Positions 1 to 63,127 of a DNA stretch of 64,000 bases are shown one piece after another (within the stretch, counting starts at the first letter, position 1; each line of letters begins with the position of its first letter). Where the stretch lies: positions 1 to 64,000 of the forward strand of contig JAISLD010000028.1 of NCBI GenBank assembly GCA_031260665.1, read 5' to 3'. The notes under the pieces are model-generated. The model searched no databases. It was not told the DNA's origin and was given only the letters and a program-made list of their open reading frames with translations. The DNA comes from Oscillospiraceae bacterium. Lineage in GTDB: Bacteria > Bacillota > Clostridia > Oscillospirales > Ruminococcaceae. The position numbers were made by a program, and so were the translations under genes.

Positions 1-118
1 CGCCCACGCGGCGAAGCCGCGAAACGGCGTATCAGGACGGTTAAATCCGCTCCTGCGGAGCGGTAGCCGCTGAAAGCGGCTATAAAAACGCTTTAGCGTT
101 TTTAATTTAACCTACTAT
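1..118. repeat. Modular palindromic repeat element, copy A (may continue left of the window)
   Basis: An outer inverted repeat, GGTTAAAT at 39-46 and ATTTAACC at 105-112, encloses three short hairpins: 47-63 (CCGCTCC, loop TGC), 65-81 (AGCCGC, loop TGAAA) and 84-103 (AAAAACGC, loop TTTA). A further hairpin, CGCGGC-GAA-GCCGCG, lies at 7-21. Nearly the same sequence recurs in opposite orientation at about 47785-47880, where about 12 bases of the middle are missing. The element lies just upstream of the his operon promoter region. Its function is unknown. Confidence 0.85.
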
Positions 119-149
119 AAGTTGCCGATATTGGCAAGCAAGCACTGAT

Positions 150-19021: not shown

Positions 19022-19128
19022 AGTCGGTGCCCGACAGGCAACAAATTAAAGGAATATCTGTGTGTGTCTAAGCAAACAAGTTAGTCGGTGCCCGACAGGC
19101 AACAAATTAAAGAAATATGTGTGTGTCC
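19022..19128 (+). repeat. Two direct repeats of about 46 bp in the nth-DHH intergenic region
   Basis: AGTCGGTGCCCGACAGGCAA followed by CAAATTAAA and a TGTGTGTGTC tail occurs at 19022-19068 and again at 19083-19128, with only a few differences. A partial third copy (AGTTGGTGCCCGA) precedes the first. GTCGG-TGC-CCGAC can form a small hairpin. Two CCGGCACGGGG motifs follow at about 19128 and 19175. The whole 18966-19264 gap carries only these repeats and two divergent promoters. Confidence 0.8.
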
Positions 19129-34774: not shown

Positions 34775-34923
34775 GCAATCAACATCAACAATTTAATCGC
34801 AATCCCAAAGGTCATACTCCTCGGGGCAGAGGCGGGCGACCGGGAATATCAGCAAAGCAAGTTGTTAAGTTGTTAATGACGCAACAGCACAAGAAAATAT
34901 TCACAGCAGGAGAAACGAAATGA
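34771..34923 (+). CDS. Candidate 50-residue basic small protein between infA and rpmJ
   Basis: GTG 34771 overlaps the infA stop (GTGA) and the TGA at 34921-34923 overlaps the rpmJ ATG (ATGA), so the frame fills the gap exactly. The product starts [15 protein letters not shown], has a Pro/Gly/Arg motif [10 protein letters not shown] and a basic helix-like end, [17 protein letters not shown] recognise no family. No separate Shine-Dalgarno is visible, so translation would depend on coupling. An open run of this length has roughly a one-in-ten chance at random, and codon choice (cgg, cga, tta, ata) is less biased than in the ribosomal genes, so it may be spurious. Confidence 0.4.
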
Positions 34924-46422: not shown

Positions 46423-47442
46423 TTAATATTTAGCGTCGTCGTCGGCAAGCACGTCAGTCAACTTGTCGATGTTTTCAAGCACCTTGCCTGTGCCGTCGGC
46501 GACGCAGTCGAGCGGCCGCTCGGCAATCTTGACGGGCATGTGGGTTTCCTCATTGATGAGGATATCAAGCCCCTTAAGAAGCGCGCCTCCACCGGCAAGC
46601 ATTATCCCCGTGTCTATGATATCGCTTGATAATTCAGGCGGAGTTTTCTCGAGCGTCGTCTTGATTGCCTCGATGATATGACTCAAGGGTTCAACCAACG
46701 CCTCGCGTATTTCCTCGCTTGTGATAGATATGTTCTCGGGCAGACCGTTCAAGAGGTTGCGCCCCTTGATGTCCATACTTTCTTCTTTTTCGGCGTACTT
46801 GTGTGCCGAACCGATGTTTATCTTGATATTTTCGGCGGTTCTGTCGCCGATAAGCAGGTTGTACTTCTTCTTCACATACGCGATTATCGCCGCGTCAAAC
46901 TCGTCGCCTGCCACTCGGACAGACTTTGACGTGACGATACCGCCGAGTGAGATAACCGCGACTTCGCTGGTGCCGCCCCCTATGTCTACTATCATACTGC
47001 CTGTCGGTTCCTCAACAGGCAGCCCCGCCCCGATAGCGGCAGCCATCGGCTCCTCAATGATAGACACGCGCTTCGCTCCCGCGTTTTGCGCCGCTTCTTT
47101 GACGGCACGGCGTTCCACCGCCGTAACCCCCGACGGTATGCAGATGACGACTTTCGGGCGCACCCACGAGCGATACTTCATTGCTTTGCGGATAAACGCC
47201 TGAAGCATACTTGTCGTCATATCAAAGTCAGCGATAACGCCGTCTTTCAGCGGACGCACCGCCTTGATACTGCCGGGCGTACGCCCGATAACGTCTTTCG
47301 CTTCTTGCCCGACGTAACGAACGCGGTCGGTTTTGAGGTCCACCGCCACCACGCTCGGTTCACGAATGATTATACCTTTGCCGCGCATATAAACAAGTGT
47401 GTTTGCTGTGCCGAGGTCTATTCCGATGTCTTTCGAGAACAT
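46423..47442 (-). CDS. mreB: Rod shape-determining protein MreB (actin-like)
   Basis: Actin-like ATPase that forms membrane filaments and guides lateral wall synthesis. The 339-residue protein starts [21 protein letters not shown] (phosphate 1). It has [20 protein letters not shown] (phosphate 2), [15 protein letters not shown] (adenosine) and the conserved [13 protein letters not shown]. It is the first gene of the mre operon, with a promoter about 95 bases upstream. The gene shows rod-type elongation machinery in this organism. Confidence 0.97.
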
Positions 47443-47563: not shown

Positions 47564-47631
47564 GATTATTCGGGTTTTTCGCAAACTTTTGCTCGTGTTT
47601 ATCCGACAATTTTCGTTGTATACTCCTTAAC

Positions 47632-47932
47632 AGGTTAAACTTTCAGTTTAACCTCTGCCGCTTCGCGGCAATTGGCTACGCCGCCAAGTTAATCCGCACA
47701 CAAGCGTAACACGCCGCTTCACGGCGTGGGCACTTCGCGCCGCACATAAAAACTCGGTGAGTTTTTATGTGGTTACGCGGTATATAGTAGGTTAAATTAA
47801 AAACGCTAAAGCGCTTTCAGCGGCTACCGCTCCGCAGGAGCGGATTTAACCGTCCTGATACGCCGCTTCGCCGCGTGGGCGCGTATGCGCCCAAACTTAA
47901 AAACACTTAAGTGCTTTTAAGTTAAACGGCTA
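47632..47932. repeat. Modular palindromic repeat element, copy B (composite)
   Basis: Most of the 492-base gap 47443-47934 is made of hairpins: AGGTTAAACT-TTC-AGTTTAACCT (47632-47654), TGCCGC-TTC-GCGGCA (47656-47670), ACGCCG-CTTCA-CGGCGT (47711-47727), a 13-bp stem at 47743-47771, the copy-A module bounded by GGTTAAAT (47790-47797) and ATTTAACC (47844-47851), and AACTTAAAAGCACTT-type pairing at 47894-47923. The copy-A part is inverted relative to 1-118. The end TTAAGTTAAACGGCTA is shared with copy C. The last hairpin may also terminate the ABC operon. Confidence 0.88.
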
Positions 47933-47934
47933 TA

Positions 47935-49818
47935 TCACACTTTCTCGAACTGCGAGTTGTAAAGCACCGCATAGTCGCCGCCTCTCGCTAAAAGCTCCTC
48001 GTGGGTGCCTTGTTCGGTGATATCTCCGTCTTTCATATGAAGAATGAGGTCGGCGTTTCGTATTGTCGAGAGCCTGTGGGCGATGATGAAACTCGTTCTC
48101 CCACGCATAAGCACGTCCATTGCCTGCTGGATTTTCTCCTCCGTCATCGTATCGACTGAGCTTGTCGCTTCGTCAAGTATCAGTATCTTCGGGTCGGCAA
48201 GGACGGCGCGGGCTATCGTCAGCAACTGCTTTTGTCCGCTTGAGATGTTGCTTGATTCTTCATTCAGTTCCATAGAATATCCGTTTGGCAGCGACATAAT
48301 GAAGTGGTGCGCGTCCGCTGTCTTTGCCGCCGCAATGACTTCCTCGTCCGTCGCTCCGTCTTTACCGTAGCGGATATTCTCCATTATCGTGCCGCCAAAC
48401 ACCCACGTGTCTTGCAGCACCATGCCAAATGCCTGCCGTATGTCGTGGCGGCGGAAATCACGCAAATCAATGCCGTCAGCTGTTATCTTGCCGCTTTGCA
48501 CCTCATAAAAGCGCATAAGCAGCTTGATAACCGTCGTTTTGCCCGCACCCGTGGCGCCGACTATCGCTATCTTCTGCCCCGCTTTTACGTTTGCCGAGAA
48601 GTCCTTGATAATCACCTTGTCGTCTGAATACCCGAAGTGGACGTGTTCAAACGTGATGTTCCCCTTAACAAGCGACACGTCAGCTTGCTTGCCTTCGTCT
48701 GACGCTTCTTCTTCTTCGCCCAAAAACGCAAAGATTCTCTCTGCCGCCGCCGCTAATGACTGAAGCTGCGTTGAAGCCTGCGCCACTTGACTAAGCGGCT
48801 GTGTGAACTGCTTCACGTACTGTATAAACGCTTGTATTGACCCAACCGTAATGCTCCCTGTCACCGCGAGATAACCGCCGACTGCCGCCACCGCGACATA
48901 GCCGATGTTGCCGATGAAGAACATAATCGGCATCATAAGCCCCGAGATGAACTGCGACTTCCACGCCGAGGTGTAGAGCCGCTCGTTGTCCTCGTCAAAG
49001 TCAGCCGTCACTTTGTCCTCCGCGTTATAGGCGCGCACTATTGTCTGCGCCCCAAACACTTCTTCTATCTGGGCGTTGACGTGCCCGAGGTATTCTTGAT
49101 GAGTGGCGAAATACCCGTGTGAGTGCTTCATCATAAAGCCCATTATGACGCCCGAAAGAGGCAGGATAATCAGCACTATCAATGTCAGCTTCCAGTTGAT
49201 AGTGAACATCATTATCGATATCCCGACAAGCGACACAAAAGACGTGACAAGCGAGGTGAAACTCTGGTTCAGTCCTTGTGCCAAAGTGTCGATATCGTTT
49301 GTGATAATCGAGAGGGTTTCACCTGTGTTTGTGCTGTCGAATTTACGAAATGGCATACGGTGAATCTTCGCGCTGATTTCATTGCCGAGGCGATAGGCAA
49401 GCGTTTGCGCCACATCGGCCATTATCCAGCCGCTGATTGCCGACAGCAAAGCGCTGACGATATAGAGAGCCAGCACAAACAGCAGAATCTCGGCTATCTT
49501 GTCAAACGCAATGCCGTTGCCGCCGCTCATTTTGCTGACTAACCCGTTGAAGAGTTCGGTCGTTGCTGTGCCGAGGATTTTCGGCCCGACTATCGAGAAT
49601 ACCGTGCTGCCGATTGCCGCTAAGAATATCAAGATGAGTCGCCCCTTGAACGCCGCCATTCGTTTGAACAGCTGCTTCATTGACCCCTTGAAGTCTTTCG
49701 CTTTCTCCATCGGCATTCCGTCAAAGCGGGGCTTGCCGACCTTGGCTCTGTTGCGGCGCACTTCCGCGGCGCGTTGGTTTCTGTTTGGTGTTGATGTGTT
49801 TGGCATTGTTTTACTCAT
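47935..49818 (-). CDS. ABC exporter half-transporter, catalytically complete subunit
   Basis: A 627-residue fused permease-ATPase. Six membrane segments are expected in residues 50-350, after a basic N terminus. The nucleotide-binding domain has Walker A GATGAGKTT, a slightly altered signature ISSGQKQ (instead of LSGGQ), Walker B with catalytic Glu in ILILDEATSSVD and the H-loop AHRLSTI. It forms a heterodimer with the upstream gene. The substrate is unknown; relatives export drugs, lipids or peptides. The gene is 21 bases downstream of its partner. Confidence 0.93.
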   Translation of the reverse strand: MSKTMPNTSTPNRNQRAAEVRRNRAKVGKPRFDGMPMEKAKDFKGSMKQLFKRMAAFKGRLILIFLAAIGSTVFSIVGPKILGTATTELFNGLVSKMSGGNGIAFDKIAEILLFVLALYIVSALLSAISGWIMADVAQTLAYRLGNEISAKIHRMPFRKFDSTNTGETLSIITNDIDTLAQGLNQSFTSLVTSFVSLVGISIMMFTINWKLTLIVLIILPLSGVIMGFMMKHSHGYFATHQEYLGHVNAQIEEVFGAQTIVRAYNAEDKVTADFDEDNERLYTSAWKSQFISGLMMPIMFFIGNIGYVAVAAVGGYLAVTGSITVGSIQAFIQYVKQFTQPLSQVAQASTQLQSLAAAAERIFAFLGEEEEASDEGKQADVSLVKGNITFEHVHFGYSDDKVIIKDFSANVKAGQKIAIVGATGAGKTTVIKLLMRFYEVQSGKITADGIDLRDFRRHDIRQAFGMVLQDTWVFGGTIMENIRYGKDGATDEEVIAAAKTADAHHFIMSLPNGYSMELNEESSNISSGQKQLLTIARAVLADPKILILDEATSSVDTMTEEKIQQAMDVLMRGRTSFIIAHRLSTIRNADLILHMKDGDITEQGTHEELLARGGDYAVLYNSQFEKV

Positions 49819-62941: not shown

Positions 62942-62970
62942 TTGCGTTTTTATATCATAAGGTGTATAAT
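62942..62970 (+). promoter_or_regulatory. Candidate promoter of the aminotransferase gene
   Basis: TTGCGT (62942-62947), a 17-base spacer and TATAAT (62965-62970). Repeat copy C begins 5 bases after the -10 and would form most of the leader. Confidence 0.6.
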
Positions 62971-62974
62971 ATAT

Positions 62975-63091
62975 AGTCGGTTAAACTCAAAACACTAAAG
63001 TGTTTTGAGTTTTCGCCGCGAAGCGGCGGCACGGCTTTGCTCGGCTTCGCTTGCCGACTTAAAACTTGTTAAGTTTTAAGTTAAACGGCTA
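62975..63091. repeat. Modular palindromic repeat element, copy C
   Basis: AGTCGG (62975-62980) and CCGACT (63054-63059) bracket ACTCAAAACAC-TAAA-GTGTTTTGAGT (62985-63010), CGCCGC-GAA-GCGGCG (63014-63028) and a weaker GC-rich hairpin. CTTAAAACTT-GTT-AAGTTTTAAG (63058-63080) and the shared end TTAAGTTAAACGGCTA follow. It lies entirely in the presumed 5' leader of the aminotransferase. Confidence 0.85.
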
Positions 63092-63127
63092 AATACGCTA
63101 AAAATATACTCGATGAGGTGCATTAAA

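Follow-up and report, generated by a model that had tools for sequence, protein, structure and literature searches.

T1 and T2, two families of short interspersed elements in this genome, are very probably gene-free miniature DNA transposons that resemble MITEs, with T1 inserting into, and duplicating, the dinucleotide TA. The genome, that of a gut bacterium, contains roughly a hundred of these short jumping elements in total. The first inspection, made from the letters alone (hereafter the sequence-only reading), had proposed a mobile or amplified, MITE-like repeat class, and this is borne out by the inverted ends, by the TA duplication seen in three T1 elements relative to paralogous empty sites, and by the many copies in one species. 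In the predicted structures, T1 and T2 have one two-module, six-hairpin plan despite their different sequences. Among known bacterial MITEs they would be a further family, marked by an ordered and repeated fold, in a host genome that has no match to the five transposase families searched.

Elements inside the window

The window, meaning the whole 64,000-nucleotide stretch that was analysed, is C42:1-64000 in an assembly of 1,457,681 bases (1.46 Mb; 48 contigs, 95.6% complete). It contains the following elements:

1..119, minus strand: incomplete T1a element that comprises the left module and some of the second, the remainder lying past the contig end
47619..47784, plus strand: T2 element, TATACTCC ... 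GTATA, with three hairpins in each of its two modules, one of the six hairpins being shortened in this copy
47783..47934, plus strand: T1a element, TATAGTAGG ... GGCTATA, 152 bp, somewhat decayed
62972..63091, plus strand: T1-like variant bounded by TATAGTCGG on the left and TTAAGTTAAACGGCTA on the right

The copy at 1-118 is truncated because the window begins at base 1 of contig C42. The site at 47632-47932 had been taken for a single copy; its hairpins are real, but it actually consists of a T2 and a T1 placed end to end, with the TA at 47783-47784 common to both. This site is flanked by mreB (46423-47442, minus strand) and an ABC transporter gene (47935-49818, minus strand), and the stop codon of the latter abuts the T1 element. 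The MreB protein is 81-87% identical to those of Oscillospiraceae, Ruminiclostridium and Ruminococcus MAGs, among the best 8 of 80 matches, which makes the host probably an uncultured member of the Oscillospirales. In the variant at 62972-63091, the right flank reads GGCTAAATA, so that the TA there is not intact.

Several observations of the sequence-only reading held in detail. The near-identity in opposite orientation between the contig start and the T1 at 47783 extends over 1-78/47812-47889 (78 nt, 91%) and 85-119/47783-47817 (35 nt, 97%), the proposed module borders GGTTAAAT/ATTTAACC are present, and the common end GTTAAACGGCTA occurs at 47921 and 63080. The strings of hairpins are likewise supported by DNA folding of 47622-47786, 47783-47934 and 62970-63096, which gave z values of -8.5, -4.1 and -6.7, respectively; in no case did any of 200 shuffles fold as well.

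Copy number and distribution

The T1 left end TATAGTAGGTTAAAT, allowing up to two mismatches, occurs at 88 sites in the genome (51 exact), and the backwards-read control gave 0. The three sites first noticed do share building blocks, as had been claimed, but the copy number is far above three, and the suggested whole-genome search for further copies found many. When 47632-47932 and 62975-63091 were used as DNA queries, each returned 69 matches in the genome, a figure that is not a copy number because short reverse-strand rows of the same copies are included and the candidates were only partly scored (40 of 157 and 40 of 102, respectively). In the 246,433 bases of the genome that were examined, 163 ends were found, made up of 50 pairs, each bounding an element of 52-182 bp, and 63 ends without a partner, the latter being contig-end truncations, decayed copies or ends missed by the search patterns. 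The elements are thus numerous, short and without coding capacity, the absence of genes following from their length. Among mechanically called ORFs of at least 300 bases, one (351 bases) spans one of the 50 paired elements. The 48 contigs have 96 ends, of which at least 20 fall within element copies; this helps to account for the fragmentation of the assembly, and the part missing from the assembly may well sit at repeats.

Among 40 relatives searched (24 of the genus), matches were found only in G012, a second species of the genus, which gave 19 short ones. The sequence TATAGNNGGTTAAAYT occurs 75 times in the host genome and once each in 2 of 196 other genomes of the family; TATAGYNRRTTAARYT occurs 98 times, and 1-4 times in 18 of 393 other genomes of the order (a sample that does not contain G012), counts that by eye do not exceed the reversed control; and TATAGTRGRTTAAATTWAAA, with up to one mismatch, occurs 58 times, and once each in 8 of 397 other genomes of the phylum. 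The exact 22-letter core had 0 matches in the genome_contigs and viral_contigs collections, from which records near this genome are possibly absent. A hairpin-cluster detector applied to stretches of 20 genomes of the genus (about 350 kb) found two runs of three hairpins and 0 of at least four; at the threshold of four, it also found none in the window, so that this result carries little weight. No paper on this element class was found in the open-licence PMC literature, as judged from listings and the beginnings of abstracts.

Ends and insertion at TA

T1 carries terminal inverted repeats of the type TATAG[TC][AC]GGTTAAA at both ends, and T2 carries terminal inverted repeats of the type TATACT...TAACC, its ends being TATACTCC and TATACTGCG. 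Empty sites were sought for 48 of the 50 paired elements by joining the two flanks with either TA or TATA and comparing them with the 246 kb of the host's own DNA and with loci from relatives. Three T1 elements, of 171, 119 and 107 bp, matched four empty copies with one TA, all of which are paralogous repeats in the same genome, and the alignments to C32 and C2 are short (43, 43 and 36 bases). The element C31:9024-9194 (171 bp) aligned gap-free to a place in C9 with one TA (95.4% over 87 bases, junction 22/22). C41:66805-66923 (119 bp) aligned in the same way to two places in C32 (20/22 and 19/22) and to one place in C41 (17/22), and C25:3681-3787 (107 bp) to a place in C2 (junction 21/22) and to one in C41 (15/22).

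The remaining loci were unclear or spoke against a single TA. C42:70475-70561 aligned to three paralogs only with gaps and with 6-8 junction mismatches, and the paralog of C9:11246-11330 in C4 (junction 15/22) does not have the TA. The paralog of C43:10843-10930 in C37 holds TATA, which would fit a 4-bp duplication or, alternatively, the gain of an AT by that copy; the repeat at this site reads GTCATA in most of its copies. In the other rows the query had matched an element or the locus from which it came, and the same search, with its 48 sets of flanks, found no empty site for T2. The TATA shared where T1 and T2 join had prompted the idea of a 4-bp duplication; it was dropped, as the empty sites in C9 and C32 need no gap when aligned with TA and a two-base gap with TATA. 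On balance, T1 is TAG...CTA, and TA is duplicated upon insertion, giving TA-TAG...CTA-TA. The target of T2 would presumably be the same.

A predicted two-cloverleaf fold

Folded as single-stranded DNA, a full T1 (C2:98126-98296; -61.7 kcal/mol, z -11.2) is predicted to form a stem, GGTTAAAT, closing three hairpins, and, beyond a linker of 10 nt, a second stem, GCCAGT, around three more hairpins. A full T2 (C37:88107-88275; -56.5 kcal/mol, z -12.5) follows the same plan with other sequences. The X1 family of G012 has its own version (z -10.8), with both modules in the centroid and the first closing stem open in the minimum-energy structure. The terminal hairpins of X1, AAAAACGCTAAAGCGTTTTT and AAAACACTTTAGTGTTTT, are common to T1 and its interior hairpins are different, and X1 is not fully independent of T1 because the terminal hairpins are shared.

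The fold is maintained among copies. In 13 T1b copies, 98.4% of the cells are paired, as compared with 32.9-41.4% when the structure is slid, and in six T2 copies 97.5% versus 31.1-42.2%; the reference structures were each taken from a single sequence, one pair being shifted to agree with the T1 majority, and this gives them an advantage over the slid versions. Six T1b pairs changed on both sides, a number reached by 0 of 500 shuffles, and further pair types were fewer than in all shuffles. In T2, two pairs changed on both sides, which 184 of 500 shuffles reached; counted by cells changed on both sides, 1 of 500 did. Changes of this sort can arise by arm-to-arm copying without function.

This last point leads to a reading that we consider a serious possibility, although somewhat short of probable: the elements are MITEs, and the double cloverleaf is a by-product with no role in transposition, its hairpins having been gathered and perfected by intra-strand template switching, the process known as quasipalindrome correction. 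The both-sided stem changes fit such copying, as do exact loop inversions, found in 6 of 282 loops after three that read in both orientations had been dropped and one hairpin with palindromic flanks left out; at this frequency, loop inversion was set aside as a strong signature. The 52-bp forms, which are near-perfect single palindromes, point the same way. Against this reading, the recurrence of one architecture, two modules that each contain three hairpins, in T1, T2 and X1, despite their different sequences, suggests a constraint, with the reservation on X1 given above. The opposite proposal, that the enzyme recognises the shape of the folded DNA, a tandem pair of four-way junctions bearing three hairpins apiece, that T1, T2 and X1 present one such shape, and that this enzyme and the mover of the Correia elements of Neisseria are members of one undiscovered family, appears unlikely to us. 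Since different sequences keep one plan, the roles of shape and sequence in movement are directly testable.

The maintained fold, with some stems changed on both sides, would also be expected of structured RNA genes or cis-regulatory RNAs under selection as transcripts, their spread being secondary, but several features make this very unlikely. The Rfam search of seven loci yielded four weak matches (E up to 1), all below the gathering score, and no known RNA family was recognised at these loci. The orientation relative to genes is mixed, and most hairpins are missing from many copies. The T1b stems show three G-T against 13 other mismatches (one A-C and 12 others), small counts with no sign of wobble tolerance, and in the six T2 copies three of the 12 departures are G-U cells. 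Moreover, many loops are three letters long, and three-letter loops suit DNA hairpins. For T1 and T2 as DNA elements, the hairpins would form when the DNA is single-stranded or supercoiled.

Length variation and mixed ends

Among 22 short T1 elements, we counted 30 deletions of at least six bases, of which 13 have microhomology of at least three letters and 10 of at least five, as compared with 10.5% and 4.1% of random deletions; the deletions are not independent, since seven of the 10 with at least five letters come from two recurrent junctions, TTTAACCG (3) and GCCGCGCC (4). The lengths 119, 88 and 52 bp recur in four, three and four elements, respectively, with the short forms lacking whole hairpins, and may reflect either repeated slippage or the transposition of shortened forms. 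Mismatched end types were found in 4 of the 50 elements (C46:21490-21641, C9:54158-54281, C41:45041-45200 and C30:136079-136240), the last two of which carry a rare T3 end. The idea that hairpin cassettes had been swapped between copies therefore survives in part: the mixed ends support it, whereas much of the length variation consists of hairpins missing as complete units, some of them at short direct repeats. Slippage between such repeats would remove whole hairpins, and recombination between copies would swap the ends.

Other dispersed repeats

Further repeats accompany T1 and T2 in this genome. One member of a family designated T4 lies in the window:

34805..34842, plus strand: T4 dispersed repeat member, CCGAAGGTCATACCCCTCGGGGCACAGGCGGGCGACCG

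T4 occurs at 19 places (core, up to four mismatches) or 15 (longer pattern) in the 246 kb of the host's DNA, and T1 copies adjoin several T4 copies elsewhere in the genome. At 19022-19126 the window holds a tandem pair, AGTCGGTGCCCGACAGGCAACAAATTAAAG..., and the pattern GGTGCC[CG]GAC[AG]GGCAA from this repeat, with one mismatch allowed, occurs 14 times in the 246 kb (reversed control, 0). C9:40371-40465 and the flank of C31:9024-9194 represent another dispersed repeat, whose hairpins are of the type GAGAGAACACTAA; its sequence GAGAACACTAA occurs nine times in the 246 kb (reversed control, 0). X2 (TATAGTCCTTTAACTTAAAAAGCG...), a second family in G012 (L013 and L019), has similar ends and, by eye, a different hairpin plan. 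In another species of the genus (G020), L202:133-190 is a string of three GC-rich hairpins without TATA borders.

Search for the mobilising enzyme

Profile searches of the host genome with Y1_Tnp, DDE_3, DDE_Tnp_1, rve and Transposase_mut all gave 0 matches; among 14 control genomes, the same families matched in 5, 3, 9, 6 and 6, respectively. An IS630-type parent was rejected, as DDE_3 (PF13358) had 0 matches in the genome. Within 24 relatives, the genes that DDE_3 detected in G001, G003 and G012, all of the genus, were partial, split or at a contig edge, and the DNA examined for them, about 2 kb each, contained no ends of the TATAG or TATAC type; one sub-threshold match came from a genome of the order (G032). 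The five transposase families revealed no autonomous relative bearing these ends in the 95.6% complete assembly. We suppose that a TA-specific, DDE-type transposase moved the elements by acting in trans on the ends of about 20 bp, and that it may since have been lost, may be unassembled, or may belong to a family other than the five searched.

The REP/BIME affiliation raised by the sequence-only reading, if taken to mean that a REP-associated tyrosine transposase (RAYT) spread the elements through their single-stranded hairpins, would account for the high copy number, the palindromes, the intergenic placing and the composite arrangements. Nevertheless, the RAYT profile Y1_Tnp (PF01797), which matched 5 of the 14 control genomes, has 0 matches in this genome, and T1 has inverted ends and a TA duplication instead, which is not the RAYT pattern, making this affiliation highly improbable. 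Least credible of all, ordinary bidirectional terminators expanded by duplication would explain the A and T runs flanking some hairpins, but the 50 paired elements lie in 27 tandem, 8 divergent and 2 convergent contexts (13 have at least one side unassigned by mechanical ORFs), and no other genome searched has comparable numbers, which speaks against terminators conserved at fixed positions across genera.

Comparison with known systems

Modular repeats with a variable number of internal units are known as BOX in Streptococcus pneumoniae; the BOX units, ends and target differ from those of T1 and T2. Bacterial MITEs with TA ends are summarised in PMC2229807, which also describes RUP of S. pneumoniae (107 bp, 108 copies, TA sites). 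RUP is likewise a small TA-site element of a Gram-positive bacterium, but it is accompanied by IS630-Spn1 with like ends (PMC2229807), whereas the present host has 0 DDE_3 matches. The CIR elements of Caulobacter and Brucella, given there only a partial resemblance to MITEs, have two arms and a linker; they form two long hairpins, as opposed to the two three-hairpin modules of T1 and T2.

The Correia elements (CREE, NEMIS) of Neisseria, a different phylum from the host of T1 and T2, are similarly short, without genes and mostly intergenic, with about 100 or more copies and a TA target, which T1 shares. PMC2649163 describes insertions often at TA and called the mobilising mechanism undetermined in 2009. 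The Correia terminal repeat begins tatagtggattaaatttaaa in PMC5039591. The T1 left end agrees with it at 16 of the 20 letters after TA, as 4 of 20,000 shuffles do, although the similarity covers these first 20 letters and the end is not the 26-bp Correia repeat itself. Against the best of the four variants quoted in that paper, over the same 20 letters, the T1 right ends scored 14 (T1Ra, reached by 33 of 20,000 shuffles) and 13 (T1Rb, 132), the X1 ends 14 (34) and 16 (3), and the X2 ends 13 (188) and 15 (22); the T2 ends lack the resemblance, T2L scoring 9 (6,313) and T2R 11 (1,821), and T3R scored 11 (2,053). As Correia was picked for this comparison because of a likeness already noticed, the shuffle figures overstate the similarity.

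Correia-like ends occur in 82 stretches of viral_contigs, among which no parent IS was recognised. Inverted pairs of such ends 60-160 bp apart number seven (L238, L240, L248, L260, L263, L266 and L278), the others looking chance-like by eye. L238, the one Correia-type copy that was folded, on a viral contig and recognised by its ends, is predicted to form one long hairpin, as opposed to the two cloverleaves of T1 and T2. The likeness of the T1 end to the Correia repeats offers an independent route, through the relatives of this host, to the enzyme that moves the Correia elements.
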